Positions 34,948 through 43,259 of a stretch of 51,467 nucleotides of DNA are shown piece by piece. The notes under the pieces were generated by a model, which searched no databases, was not told where the DNA came from, and saw only the letters and a list, made by a program, of their open reading frames with translations. Numbering within the stretch: position 1 is the first letter of the stretch; each line of letters begins with the position of its first letter. Source of the stretch: Bacillota bacterium. GTDB lineage: Bacteria; Bacillota; SHA-98; UBA4971. The DNA lies in the NCBI GenBank assembly GCA_012516125.1, contig JAAYXB010000010.1, positions 79,984 through 131,450 of the forward strand, in the 5' to 3' direction. Both the position numbers and the translations under genes were made by a program.

Positions 34948-35904
34948 TTATCTGAGCCTCATGAGCCCGAGCAGGATAAGGATGCCGCCAGGCACCTTTT
35001 CGAGGCCTGGAGCAAGAGCACTCATCTTGATCCTCCGCCCGATGGTGATGCCTGCGCTCACGAAGACGAACTGAGTGGCGCCGGCAATGAGCGGGGTCAA
35101 GGTGCTCGAAAGCCCCGCCATCCCGGCTCCGAACCCCACGCCGAGAGCGTCAATGGCGAGGGCGAGGCCGAGGAGGAAGGCCTCACCCGGTGTAAGGGTA
35201 CCGGACGAGTCGAGGTCCGCGCGTGCAGGCTCGTCGAGAAGGCCGGGCACCATGGCAAGAGATCTCACAAGCCGTGCACGCCACAAGAATGCACCCGGGG
35301 TCTCGCGACTTTCGGCTGCCCGCACAGCTGTGCCTCCCGTCTCGATCCTGCCGCCGTCGCCCATGGCTTCGGCATCATCGTTACCCTCACCTGTGCCTTT
35401 CTCTTCAGAAACAGGTTTCCTACAAGCTCCACTCGCAATCCCGTTTCCGGCTTCGCTCTCAGACACAACGCGGCATGTAGCCACATCCATCTGTCTGCCA
35501 GCAACCTTTCCTGGAGCCTTCCCTCGTCTGTCGCGCCCTACAGTAGCCTGACGAGCTATCGAGAGGTCGGGCAGCTCCGGGTCTTTCGCTGCCACGTTCT
35601 CGTGCGCGGTCCCCGAGGCGCGTCGCGCTTCCCCCGCCGGTGCGGTTGACGTCTGCCCGCGCAACAGCATCCATGCCCCGAGCGTCATGAGGATGCCACC
35701 GCCGATCAGTCTACCCGCAATGGGAGTGAGAAATCCTGCGACAGCGCGCCCGCTGCCCACGGATAGGAACACAACCACAGCAGACACCACGTTCATCACA
35801 AGAAGCGAGCCCAGCGGCACCTTTATGCCGCGCAAACCCTCGGCCACCCCCGCAGCGAACCCGTCGATACTGACAGCAATCGCAAACAGCAAGACCGCAA
35901 GCAC
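34948..35904 (-). CDS. ytaF: Sporulation membrane protein YtaF
   Basis: This protein, about 318 residues, has the duplicated MntP/YtaF half-domain: LLFAIAVSIDGFAAGVAEGLRG at the N-terminus and LGLALAIDALGVGFGAGMAG in the second half. The conserved Asp residues are typical of MntP-type membrane proteins. YtaF is a sporulation-associated membrane protein of unknown function. Between the halves lies an unusually long hydrophilic insert of about 140 residues. The GTG start at 35904 fits homologue length; an in-frame ATG at 36015 would add 37 residues without family similarity. It follows the OMP gene and precedes coaE. Confidence 0.85.
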   Translation of the reverse strand: MLAVLLFAIAVSIDGFAAGVAEGLRGIKVPLGSLLVMNVVSAVVVFLSVGSGRAVAGFLTPIAGRLIGGGILMTLGAWMLLRGQTSTAPAGEARRASGTAHENVAAKDPELPDLSIARQATVGRDRRGKAPGKVAGRQMDVATCRVVSESEAGNGIASGACRKPVSEEKGTGEGNDDAEAMGDGGRIETGGTAVRAAESRETPGAFLWRARLVRSLAMVPGLLDEPARADLDSSGTLTPGEAFLLGLALAIDALGVGFGAGMAGLSSTLTPLIAGATQFVFVSAGITIGRRIKMSALAPGLEKVPGGILILLGLMRLR

Positions 35905-36234
35905 TCGCTGATCGCCCCTTCCACCCGCAGCCATCGCCGCTTTCGCGGCGGTCCCGATGGTTACGATACGGGGCGCGCGAGCAAAGGGTGCCTGTACGTA
36001 CACGCGGTGGGACATTGCCTACAGCCGCGCAAAACACGTCCCGCGGTGCCCTCGACTAGCAGGCCTGCAGGGCACGTACCACGGTACGGTCGCCTTGCTC
36101 AGAGTTGATCAGGGTCTCCGCCAAAAGGCGCGCTCGGGGAGAGGTGCGGGAGCCAGCACGTCCCCCCTATCCTCCTGCGATCCTGGGACCGCCGGTAGGT
36201 ATCGGCCACGTACCGCCCACACCCATCCAATAGA
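35905..36234. other. Region upstream of ytaF
   Basis: The interval holds the alternative, longer N-terminus of ytaF (to 36015) and then non-coding sequence ahead of the terminator of the beta-barrel gene. No clear ytaF promoter is seen. Confidence 0.4.
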
Positions 36235-36285: not shown

Positions 36286-38244
36286 CTAGAACGGGATAGT
36301 TATCTTCAGCTTGTAGAGGTCGGTGTCAGGAGTGACGCTCGCGTTGCACAGCCACGACCACGGCCTATCCTCGTCAAACGCGTCCGTGCAGGACCACGGC
36401 AGGAGGGCACCCTTCCCGTAGCTGAGCACTATGGTGCTATCGCCAAGCTTCACCGTATACGCGACATCGAAGGTGCCTTGCTTCTTATCGGTCCCGTCGT
36501 AGGTGTAGCCGAGAGCAAGAGTGCTGTTCGACGACACGTTATAGGTGAACTTGTTGTGCACCAGAGTCCTGTAGTGCTCCTCACCATCGACGACACTCTG
36601 GTACTCAGTGCTCTTGCCACTCATCACGGCTATCTTGTCAGAGAACAGGTCATTCAGGGTGATGTTAGCCTCGGCGTAGCCGATGTACGTGGTCTGTGCG
36701 TTCTCCGAGGCGAGCCACACGCCCCTTGCGAGACCTGCCAGCAGAGTGTCGACCTGCTTGATGCCCGCGGGCACGAATGTCTGCTTGGCCTCGGCGTACA
36801 CCTGACCGTCGAGCCTGGTGTGCTCTGTGTGTAGGGTGTCCGCGGCGCTCACTGTCCCGCCATTCTCATCGTACCACTTCTTGAAGCAGTACTCGCCTGC
36901 TTCATACTGGGCGTCGCCTTGGATAACCACGCCTGCCACGGGCTTCACTGTTGCGGAGCCCTTGAGCTGGATACCAGATCCTGCCTCGTCCGCAAGGTTC
37001 GCGCCCATCCACTGGGCCTCGCCGGTCACGCTGAGGTTCTCGGCTGGATTGTACTCGACCTTGCCGGAAATGTTCTTCCGGTAGTCGTCATTCACAGGAG
37101 CATCCTTCGTCAGGAAGTCCTGGTACGAAGCTCCGAGAGTCACCTTCACGGGCTCGGACGGGTTGAACTCGGCCTTTCCATAAACCTTGTTGTAAGCCGC
37201 CGCCTCCAGTTTCCCGTCGTAAGCCACGCGGTAGTCGTCACCCAGCGTCAGCTTCACGGCCTGGCCGCCCACGTTGACGTTGGTGACCGCCTCGCCCTGG
37301 ATCTGACGCTTTCCGGCGAAGTCCGCGGCATCGCTCGAATCCCACCAGGGGCCAGGCGCGACCGCGTGGAAGTCCTTGGCGACTGCCCGCAGGTTCCCGC
37401 TCAGGGTGAAGTTGCCAGCTGCGATCCCCTTGAGATTGACTTCGTACGCGTTCACCGGGTCTGTCCACACGCCCTTGTTGTCGCCATTTTGGTATCTGCT
37501 CAGGGCGAGAGCGGCGGTGAACGTGGCACCTTCGGAGATCGGGAGCGGACCGGTCACATCAAACGCATAGTTCGCCAGAACGTACGGGTCATACCCGTAC
37601 TCCACCGGTTCATCCTCATCGGAGACTATCCCGTCCGCCTCAGTATCCTCCTTCACAGCGACTAAGGCTCCGACGGTGTGGCCACTTGCCAGCGCGTACG
37701 TCGCCCGACCCATCGCGTAGCGAGGATTCGCTGCTCCTGTCGGGTTCTGCGCTATGTAGTAGCTCGTGACCCCGATCCCGAACGGCTGGCCTGCGGCCTT
37801 GAACGTCGCGTAGCTGATGTCCTCAGTGTCAAGCCACTTCACGAGGCCGAGCGGGTCGCCGAAGCTTGCGAAGAAGTACTCGCCATCGGTCGCATCCGTC
37901 AGGCTGAGCGCAAGCGGAGCGCCCTTAAAGACGAAGAGGTAGTTGTCGTAGGGGTTCTGCTCGACTTGGAGCTCCTCGTCCTTATATAGCCGGAGCGGAA
38001 CGTGCGCGGACATCGCTTCGCCTTCGGCGAAATCGATATTCAGGTACAACGTTGAGAACCTGAGCAGGTCGACGCCTTTGTACTCATCAGTACCAGCCGA
38101 CGGGTTCTTTGAGTAGATGTCCCCGCCGTCATAGACGATCTGGCCCTCGTACTTGCCGCTCACCTTGAGAGTAGCGCCCATGGCCGGGACGGACATGGCC
38201 GCCACCAGGAGAACAGCGAGGACTATTCCCAGGCTTTTCCTCAT
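36286..38244 (-). CDS. Outer-membrane beta-barrel protein (porin-like)
   Basis: This 652-residue protein has a clear signal peptide (MRKSLGIVLAVLLVAAMSVPAMGA) and then alternating amphipathic strands throughout, ending in YKLKITIPF. A terminal phenylalanine and many Tyr/Gly turns are typical of outer-membrane barrels. There is no SLH domain, unlike OmpM of Negativicutes. The gene has a consensus promoter, a leader of about 270 bases, an AAGGGGG site seven bases before ATG, and a strong terminator, so it is probably highly expressed as a single gene. The family is not recognised; an abundant porin is the simplest idea. Confidence 0.75.
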   Translation of the reverse strand: MRKSLGIVLAVLLVAAMSVPAMGATLKVSGKYEGQIVYDGGDIYSKNPSAGTDEYKGVDLLRFSTLYLNIDFAEGEAMSAHVPLRLYKDEELQVEQNPYDNYLFVFKGAPLALSLTDATDGEYFFASFGDPLGLVKWLDTEDISYATFKAAGQPFGIGVTSYYIAQNPTGAANPRYAMGRATYALASGHTVGALVAVKEDTEADGIVSDEDEPVEYGYDPYVLANYAFDVTGPLPISEGATFTAALALSRYQNGDNKGVWTDPVNAYEVNLKGIAAGNFTLSGNLRAVAKDFHAVAPGPWWDSSDAADFAGKRQIQGEAVTNVNVGGQAVKLTLGDDYRVAYDGKLEAAAYNKVYGKAEFNPSEPVKVTLGASYQDFLTKDAPVNDDYRKNISGKVEYNPAENLSVTGEAQWMGANLADEAGSGIQLKGSATVKPVAGVVIQGDAQYEAGEYCFKKWYDENGGTVSAADTLHTEHTRLDGQVYAEAKQTFVPAGIKQVDTLLAGLARGVWLASENAQTTYIGYAEANITLNDLFSDKIAVMSGKSTEYQSVVDGEEHYRTLVHNKFTYNVSSNSTLALGYTYDGTDKKQGTFDVAYTVKLGDSTIVLSYGKGALLPWSCTDAFDEDRPWSWLCNASVTPDTDLYKLKITIPF

Positions 38245-38512
38245 TTTCTTTCCCCCTTACTGGTTATTTCTTGTCTCTTGTTGAGACCCCGGGGGAAACC
38301 TCCGTCATGAGTCACCTTGTTTCCTCACGACCTCGTGCGTTCCCCGAGGATCTCCGCTGCGTGACTTGTTCCAAAGTGTGCTGCGATAAAGCTACATCGT
38401 ATGCATGCGTATTCGTTTACTTAGCCGCGTAGCTAACCTCTGGGGTTTCACCTCCTTTCTGGCTACGTGGCTAAACTTGAACACACAAACAACAGTCAAA
38501 GACCGGGCTTCT
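38245..38512 (-). ncRNA. Structured 5' leader of the beta-barrel gene (unassigned RNA)
   Basis: The leader transcribed from the promoter at 38519-38547 is about 270 bases. It has a 13-bp stem with one mismatch, TTAGCCACGTAGC (about 38461-38475) with GCTACGCGGCTAA (about 38420-38433). The loop carries AGAAAGGAGGTGA, which would pair fully with the 16S rRNA 3' tail yet has no start codon at useful spacing. A stem GACCCCGGGGG with CCCCCGGGGTC-like bases lies nearer the gene. I cannot match it to a known riboswitch class; an attenuation or ribosome-standby element is inference. Confidence 0.45.
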
Positions 38513-38518
38513 TTTCCA

Positions 38519-38547
38519 ATAATATAGGGGACTAACTGGGATGTCAA
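38519..38547 (-). promoter_or_regulatory. Consensus sigma-A promoter of the beta-barrel gene
   Basis: On the minus strand, TTGACA (38542-38547) is followed after exactly 17 bases by TATTAT (38519-38524). It is among the best promoters in the window and lies about 275 bases before the ATG. Confidence 0.85.
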
Positions 38548-41829: not shown

Positions 41830-41955
41830 CTAAGTGAGGGTGCGTTAGTTCTCGCCCCTTTTCCAGTAGTTGCCGGGCTGCCGGTGTTGCACTCTCTCTT
41901 TGAGTCACCGGCAACCTCTCCCAAAAGTCGAGAGCATTCCTGCACCCCCACTTAG
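41830..41955. repeat. Nested-palindrome intergenic element, copy C (short form)
   Basis: This is the clearest short copy. The terminal inverted repeats are CTAAGTGAGGGTGCG (41830-41844) and TGCACCCCCACTTAG (41941-41955). The central hairpin is GCCGGTG (41880-41886) with CACCGGC (41906-41912) and a 19-base loop; the right arm has CTCCC/GGGAG-like CTCTCCC...GAGAG. The TAA stop codon of the SLH gene (41952-41954) is part of the right terminal repeat. The 37 bases 41880-41916 are identical to 49033-49069 in copy F. Confidence 0.88.
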
Positions 41956-43259
41956 AGGTTCAGGAGCTTGGCAAGCAGGTACTGCGCCACCTCGATCTCG
42001 CCATAGGTTTTCGCAAGCTTCCAGTCCTGGTTGAGGACGGCCGTAATGAGGTCCGATGATATGCCAAGCTCTGCCGAGAGCGCGTCGGCGAGCCGCTTTT
42101 TCGCGAGATCCCCAAGCTCGGTCCAGTTCTGGTTGACCAGGCTCGTCGCCTCCTCTTCGGTGAGGCCGCGCTCAGTAAGCCGCTCGATGAGCCTGGGTTG
42201 CAGGCCTTCCTTAACCGAGTTCCAATCGCCGCGCGCCAGCGCCTCCACATCCGATGGGGTGAGCGTACCCTTCGAGAGGATGCTCACCTTGGCTGTCACG
42301 TCATCCTTTGTGACGAGGCCGCGCGCCTTAATGAACTTGGGTTCGCCCGTCGCGTCGGCCACCACGTAGACGTCGTCGCCGCGCAGGAGCTTGTCCAGGC
42401 TGGTGGCAACGCTGTTCCTGTAGATCTGGGTGTCCAGGCCGCAAGTCACAGTTTGCTCGGTGTTCCCGGGCGTGGTCACCGTGAGCGTGCCTTCGCGCGT
42501 GTCCACGCGAGCCAGTTTGCCCTCGGTGATTCTGAGGTCGATGAGGGACTTCACCATCCACGCCGTCTCAGCCCTCGTGGTGGCGGCGTTAGGCTCGAAG
42601 ACCACGCCGAAGTGGACAGGAAGGATACCGAGAGCGTGCGCGGTCTCAACAGCCCGGAACGCCCAGTGGTCGGGTGCGACATCGGTAAAGCTGGGCTCGG
42701 GCTGCTGCAGCGAGTCCATCTTGTCGGCGAGTTTCACGACGCGCACGAGCATCGTCACCATCTCCGCGCGCGTGATGTGCCTCTCCGGCTTGAACGTGCC
42801 GTCGGGGTAGCCCGAGACGATCCCGGCTTCGGTGAGGGCTGTAATGTAGGCTTTCGCCCAGTTGTTCTTGATGTCGCGGAACCTGGGCTCGCCCGTGGGA
42901 CGTATGGCGAAAGCCCTCGCCACCATCTTCGCGAACTCCGCGCGCGTGACGGGGTTCTCGGGCTTGAATGTCCCGTCAGGGTAGCCCGCGATTATCCCCT
43001 CGTCCACGAGGGATGCGATGGCGTCCTGTGCCCACGAAAGCTCGATGTCCTTCAGGCGGGCAGATGCGCCCGCGACAGGCGCCGGCGCGGGCGCTGCGGC
43101 CTCCGTAAGCGCCGGAAGCAGCGGGAGCGTCACAAGTGCCAGCGCGAGCGCCGCGAGCAGCCCGACCACAAACGACGCCTGCGCATCCCCGCCCTGAGCT
43201 AGCCTCCCGCGATTCGCACCGCCGCGTCTCACAACGAATCCGTGCTGAGCGTCTTTCAA
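41952..43259 (-). CDS. Secreted protein with three SLH domains
   Basis: This 435-residue protein has an N-terminal membrane/signal segment (about 29-55), then three S-layer homology domains: SWAQDAIASLVDEGIIAGYP, NWAKAYITALTEAGIVSGYP and HWAFRAVETAHALGILPV. SLH domains bind pyruvylated secondary cell wall polymer or, in diderm Firmicutes, link peptidoglycan to the outer membrane. The C-terminal half holds a small beta domain (near 245-320) and helical repeats of unknown function, with no barrel. TTG start at 43259 has GGAGGGG eight bases upstream. The stop codon lies in repeat copy C, and copy E lies upstream. Confidence 0.9.
   Translation of the reverse strand: MKDAQHGFVVRRGGANRGRLAQGGDAQASFVVGLLAALALALVTLPLLPALTEAAAPAPAPVAGASARLKDIELSWAQDAIASLVDEGIIAGYPDGTFKPENPVTRAEFAKMVARAFAIRPTGEPRFRDIKNNWAKAYITALTEAGIVSGYPDGTFKPERHITRAEMVTMLVRVVKLADKMDSLQQPEPSFTDVAPDHWAFRAVETAHALGILPVHFGVVFEPNAATTRAETAWMVKSLIDLRITEGKLARVDTREGTLTVTTPGNTEQTVTCGLDTQIYRNSVATSLDKLLRGDDVYVVADATGEPKFIKARGLVTKDDVTAKVSILSKGTLTPSDVEALARGDWNSVKEGLQPRLIERLTERGLTEEEATSLVNQNWTELGDLAKKRLADALSAELGISSDLITAVLNQDWKLAKTYGEIEVAQYLLAKLLNL

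Follow-up and report, generated by a model that had tools for sequence, protein, structure and literature searches.

Proteins of the OmpM/SlpA type tether the outer membrane (OM) to the cell wall in deep-branching diderm phyla, where they are among the most abundant proteins, and in Thermus thermophilus a long 5' UTR has been reported to participate in the control of slpA. Among described leader RNAs, the closest to the element studied here is the "SLH motif", a riboswitch candidate found in Thermovirga lienii (Synergistetes) by Stav et al. 2019 (PMC6429828), the text of which counts 80 examples in Synergistaceae, Clostridia and Negativicutes, about 60% of them ahead of genes for SLH-domain proteins and the others ahead of genes of unknown function; its mechanism is there limited to a guessed ligand, a cell-wall signal such as c-di-GMP being suggested. 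In the STAB-SD of Bacillus thuringiensis cry3A, an established precedent for 5' mRNA stabilisers (PMC4113751), a leader sequence resembling a Shine–Dalgarno (SD) sequence and devoid of a start codon is likewise thought to bind the 30S subunit, whereas our SD lies inside a conserved hairpin, beside a segment pairing with the ribosome-binding site (RBS) and upstream of a second conserved hairpin. In the E. coli tisB mRNA (PMC7708055), a standby site also lies far upstream of a sequestered RBS and a pseudoknot is essential, but this enterobacterial toxin mRNA relies on a single-stranded region and S1, with no complement of the 16S tail.

The window analysed here, i.e., the whole stretch of 51,467 nucleotides from a Bacillota bacterium (assembly GCA_012516125.1, contig JAAYXB010000010.1), carries promoter, leader and OM-protein gene in that order, all features lying on the minus strand. 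The sigma-70 promoter TTGACA-N17-TATTAT, which the original prediction had given without a strand, is present at 38547-38519, where it matches 11/12 consensus positions and is supported by the genus alignment; promoter-like sites with at least 9/12 matches number two in the 3 kb scanned (this one included), against 0.7 expected. We infer a transcription start near 38512 and hence a leader of about 268 nt down to the ATG at 38244, close to the 270 bases originally proposed, and the whole leader folds at -89 kcal/mol (z -3.0). The regulated gene (36286..38244) encodes a putative exported OM protein of 652 aa with a C-terminal F and no Pfam match, predicted by AlphaFold (mean pLDDT 78, pTM 0.62) to be a large beta barrel, for which the best TM-score overlap among the matches listed is with the SlpA/SDBC barrel complexes of Deinococcus (TMq 0.42, E 3e-7), the overall TM being modest.

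Neither the window leader nor 21 loci carrying relatives of it match any covariance model of Rfam 15, from which the SLH motif is absent. The earlier statement that the leader matches no riboswitch thus holds for Rfam, but it fits the published SLH candidate by genes and taxa (PMC6429828); because gene context and taxa agree, we file it under the SLH motif, to whose class it very probably belongs, the match being one of genes and taxa and not of the consensus drawing. As in the text on that motif, the RNA lies in the 5' leaders of genes that either encode SLH-domain OM proteins or lack an assigned function, and the taxa are the same: many leaders precede SLH-OmpM proteins and the rest barrels (that of the window having no Pfam match), and records include 102/151 Synergistota genomes, Clostridia and Negativicutes, with OmpM leaders. 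Our set additionally comprises Deinococcota, Atribacterota, Halanaerobiales and others, as well as a complement of the 16S tail, a pair of RBS masks and forms retaining only the second hairpin (H2), some of which the published figure may already draw. Relative to the text of that description, the docking and dual-mask anatomy, the wider distribution including Deinococcota and the H2-only variants are apparently new.

The first hairpin, H1, consists of a 5' arm TTAGCCACGTAGC (38462..38474) and a 3' arm GCTACGCGGCTAA (38421..38433), both recovered by alignment, folding and partner tests (see below), with 38474-38462 facing 38433-38421. What had been described as a 13-bp stem does have 13 rungs, but one is an A.C mismatch, which leaves 12 true pairs; the hairpin folds at -21.7 kcal/mol (z -4.5), far beyond chance. 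Its loop contains AGAAAGGAGGTGA and, within it, GAAAGGAGGTG (38449..38459), the proposed 30S docking site, which is, as claimed, the exact complement of CACCUCCUUUC. This 11-mer complements CACCTCCTTTC of the 16S tail GGATCACCTCCTTTCT, a tail read from the genomes of two relatives; a search of the assembly found no 16S gene in the window's own MAG. In the window, the 16S tail pairs with the H1 SD at -22.2 kcal/mol versus -10.6 kcal/mol with the RBS, and the medians over the leaders are -20 kcal/mol for H1 versus -10.6 kcal/mol for the true RBS.

The argument for an upstream-ORF or transcription-attenuation leader is that strong SDs in leaders normally have an ORF behind them. However, no start codon lies at SD spacing downstream of the H1 SD in the window leader, as the original prediction had it, and across 107 non-redundant leaders start codons are not enriched after this SD (15/107, versus 25/107 in a linker window), so the H1 SD serves no upstream ORF and we rejected that explanation. 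Terminators are not in excess either: the leader yielded a single scored terminator-like site, of 5 pairs, and shuffles contain more sites of this kind. Antitermination, one of the functions originally envisaged, was consequently discarded together with terminator control for want of a convincing site in the leader, and we regard attenuation and upstream-ORF readings as highly improbable.

An SD-like complement of the 16S 3' end that is not used for initiation is, judged by sequence, also the hallmark of a STAB-SD. The 30S subunit parked on the H1 SD would then block 5'-to-3' decay by RNase J and yield a long-lived OM-protein mRNA, the rest of the leader acting as scaffold; the established precedent (PMC4113751), the stable mRNA that major OM proteins need and the location of the STAB-SD-like sequence without start codon, some 50 nt into the inferred transcript, all speak for such a stabiliser. 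Yet it leaves the covarying RBS-pairing segments and the conserved H2 loop unexplained, it does not account for H2-only leaders devoid of SD, and lineages do not keep a sharply defined spacing between promoter and H1 (a fixed distance, considered as support, gave only a weak peak over shuffles and was abandoned). Stabilisation by a parked subunit is thus an unlikely account of the leader, while mRNA stabilisation could act alongside a switch.

Next to the H1 SD, at a distance of 0-3 nt in most leaders, the H1 loop carries a segment, AACCCCAGAGGTTA (38434..38447; anti-RBS 1), that can form a long-range pseudoknot with the RBS region TAACCAGTAAGGGGG of the OM-protein gene (38252..38266), in which 38445-38442 pair with 38256-38253 and 38438-38434 with 38266-38262. 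Such pairings were evaluated by comparing cognate arms with permuted partners in the 107 leaders (5000 permutations). The H1 stem (z -22.0), the H2 stem (z -11.1) and the H2 outer stem (z -22.4) are each recovered with 0/5000, and so is the pseudoknot between H1 loop and RBS (cognate -13.36 versus swapped -10.41 kcal/mol, z -14.7, 0/5000), while SD with RBS, linker with RBS and H2 loop with RBS are all null in the same leaders. The pseudoknot has a median of 9 pairs, covers about 78% of the SD bases and shows compensating anti-RBS 1/RBS pairs (TTATCCCCC/GGGGGATAA, CGTTCCCC/GGGGAACG, CTCTGGAA/TTCCAGGG and CTTGAA/TTCAAG); its signal persists when swaps are confined to one SD class (z -12.7) and in Deinococcota taken separately (z -6.0), and becomes weak when the comparison is confined to close relatives, in one small Bacillota sample (z -2.8) and one small Synergistota sample (z -1.8). 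A local mini-hairpin ACC-n-GGU, first read in the H1 loop from the class alignment, was replaced by this long-range pairing, because other phyla do not have it and its bases are the ones that pair with the RBS.

A second mask emerged while a sequestrator rival was being tested. The 3' arm of the H2 outer stem (TTCCCCCGGGGTCTC, 38283..38297; anti-RBS 2) can pair either with its 5' arm (GAGATCCTCGGGGAA, 38340..38354) or with GGGGGAAA in the RBS, and the latter pairing is recovered at z -8.1 (stratified, -5.6). Since anti-RBS 1 tested against the H2 5' arm is null, the two masks are independent. The permutation tests leave some relatedness in, and composition-only controls still show a slight signal (z -2.0 and -2.8); nevertheless, the null controls on the same sequences and the stratified and within-phylum repeats argue against relatedness as the cause. 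In the window, the computed energies are -25.0 kcal/mol for closed H2, -17.2 kcal/mol for the H2 arm with the RBS and -11.9 kcal/mol for the pseudoknot. An RBS with two mutually exclusive partners, the second of which also closes H2, has the wiring of a switch, and its predicted masking by two covarying structures is what a standby mechanism calls for.

The pseudoknot also brings to mind the split ribosome-binding site proposed for phage T4 gene 38. Here, folding of the leader would bring the H1 SD to the distant AUG, and in most leaders this SD does end up some 9-14 nt away from the AUG once the helix is skipped; however, the combined distance varies more (sd 3.0) than does its RBS–AUG side taken by itself (sd 1.9), and the AUG is already preceded by a normal SD at normal spacing. 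As the spacing is not constant, we rejected the split site, which is improbable as the function of H1.

In the genus-to-class alignment, two blocks are conserved, namely the H1 loop and H2 with GAAACAAGGnnA, and the RBS AAGGGGG is invariant. The H2 inner stem is made of GTCGTGAG (38324..38331) and CTCATGAC (38304..38311), with changes on both sides in 6/8 pairs (152 cells versus 66 shuffled), and encloses the loop GAAACAAGGTGA (38312..38323; consensus GAAACnnGGnnA), which is retained more widely than any other part of the leader. Altogether, sequence comparison indicates that H1 bears a full complement of the 16S tail without a start codon, that the H2 loop is invariant and that the RBS can pair either with the H1 loop or with the H2 3' arm, the invariance of SD and H2 loop being partly imposed by the search pattern, with weaker model matches retaining both with few changes. 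Short leaders in which H1 and its SD are lost precede Selenomonas-type ompM (L230, L231, L232) and Thermus/Meiothermus-type slpA (L276, L280, L282, L284), and they retain the invariant loop; H2 is thus apparently the indispensable part, and some leaders do without docking. The pairings described above leave the H2 loop without a partner, and it is probably the recognition site of a regulator. Two readings of the loop were rejected, one that it mimics 16S helix 44/45 (the window has AACAAGGT, but the middle AA varies in relatives: TT, AT, AC, GA, TA), the other that it holds a CsrA-type GGA site (the A following GG is not conserved).

At face value, the leader has the usual marks of a translational riboswitch, namely strictly conserved loop bases, a pseudoknot and an RBS with alternative partners, and the motif has been published as a riboswitch candidate (PMC6429828); H1 and/or H2 would form a ligand pocket, and binding would lock one of the RBS-masking states. 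Against this, the most conserved stretch of H1 is the exact 16S complement, and its deviations in relatives are mostly A-to-G (exceptions: L305, L309, L311, L315, L316, L317), which preserves a G.U pair with 16S and so points to the ribosome rather than to a ligand; moreover, no Rfam aptamer is matched. A metabolite riboswitch is, in our opinion, rather unlikely, even if ligand sensing and ribosome standby, both part of the original prediction, are still live readings.

We favour, with some reserve, a reading in which the leader belongs to the SLH-motif class and acts in cis as a translational switch, by which the output of the main OM barrel or tether genes would be set. The competing anti-RBS segments make translation the likeliest level of control, so that the leader probably controls the translated amount of the main surface protein, and control through RBS masking seems quite probable. 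A 30S subunit would dock on H1 through an SD/anti-SD helix of 11-12 bp, a step that we hold to be just on the probable side; the docked subunit would disfavour the pseudoknot and free the RBS, to which it could then slide from standby. A closed H2, either alone or through a protein or ligand on its loop, would keep anti-RBS 2 engaged, whereas opening of H2 would let anti-RBS 2 mask the RBS. Full expression would thus require both free 30S subunits and a closed H2, in which the role of H2 as the sensor is conceivable, if somewhat short of probable. A nucleotide-level model of this kind can be tested in existing laboratory species (Thermus, Deinococcus, Veillonella).

The collection of homologous leaders and the test for covariation, suggested as checks of the original prediction, revealed an RNA conserved and covarying across several phyla, so that the outcome named as speaking against it, a leader not conserved in relatives, clearly did not occur. 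By DNA search, none of the six genomes of the genus lacks the leader, which also occurs in most of the family and class, and an H1 covariance model detects it in 16/17 genomes of the class and in families dispersed over the phylum. When GTDB genomes were scanned for a two-block pattern, at least 118 stretches were returned (less than one chance match being estimated from the base count), the taxa among the matches listed being Halanaerobiales, Synergistota, Atribacterota, Limnochordia, Negativicutes, Riflebacteria, Wallbacteria and Trueperaceae; apart from a few unreadable exceptions, the matches listed precede genes for proteins with a signal peptide, either SLH-OmpM proteins or barrels. With model R2, which combines the H1 sequence and H2, matches were obtained in 95/398 Bacillota and, as given above, in most Synergistota, as well as, at E<=0.01, in 85/111 Deinococcota; about 40 of the latter matches are strong (mostly Trueperaceae and Deinococcus, in our reading) and the others weak. 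Among ten Deinococcota loci fetched from both strong and weak matches, eight have H2 ahead of slpA-type genes and two (L277, L278) look false; Deinococcus-type slpA leaders have H1, whereas those of Thermus/Meiothermus type share H2 only, without the H1 SD (the labels Thermus, Deinococcus and Selenomonas type are our reading of recognisable proteins). The weak Bacillota matches with a readable gene are ahead of OM-type proteins in 18/18 cases, and nearly every inspected full-length match with a readable gene precedes an exported OM or SLH protein. The linkage of the leader to OM-protein genes, as read from these genomes, is near-exclusive, which, together with its conservation and covariation, strongly supports the original view that it controls a major envelope protein.

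Within Bacillota, the leader was found in 85/101 genomes with Omp85 (PF01103) versus 10/297 without (hypergeometric p ~4e-58, an optimistic value because the genomes are related), which makes it a sequence marker nearly coinciding with the outer membrane in this phylum. The 16 genomes with Omp85 and no leader (G051, G078, G085, G096, G116, G149, G202, G226, G273, G302, G322, G329, G363, G369, G382, G387) are concentrated in few families (f22, f61, f97), which suggests lineage-specific loss or divergence. One RNA element stands ahead of OM genes in most sampled diderm Bacillota and Synergistota, its H2 occurs at slpA of Thermus and Deinococcus as well, and this distribution suggests that OM-protein translation is under a common control of ancient origin. 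On these comparative grounds, the leader is a real, ancient folded RNA common to OM genes from Thermus to diderm Firmicutes. More tentatively, and with less confidence than for any single part of the switch, it may represent a class of ribosome-sensing RNAs, in which free 30S subunits are read through the 16S-tail complement and unmask the RBS of OmpM/SlpA-type tethers, with two anti-RBS segments and H2 as sensor, a class that would predate the split between Deinococcota and diderm Bacillota/Synergistota.

The genome of the window has four copies of the leader, all ahead of OM proteins. Besides the copy described above, two lie about 3.7 kb apart ahead of SLH-OmpM-type genes (frames of 927 and 946 aa) and the remaining one ahead of a 491-aa barrel gene, these extra copies being located at L228 (G000:C89:35500-43500) and L229 (G000:C94:17500-21500). 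On contig C11 of G054 (L055; putatively Candidatus Frackibacter), three leaders occur within about 3 kb in front of tandem OM-protein genes, and a fourth copy lies about 16 kb off on the same contig. Elsewhere in the window, a gene at 41952-43259 (minus strand), separated from the barrel gene by a polymerase I gene, encodes a protein with three SLH repeats, at which model R2 found no leader of its type. Finally, the gene at 34948-36015 (minus strand) encodes a putative manganese efflux pump (MntP), the family match of which is split by a long low-complexity insert that may be lineage-specific.
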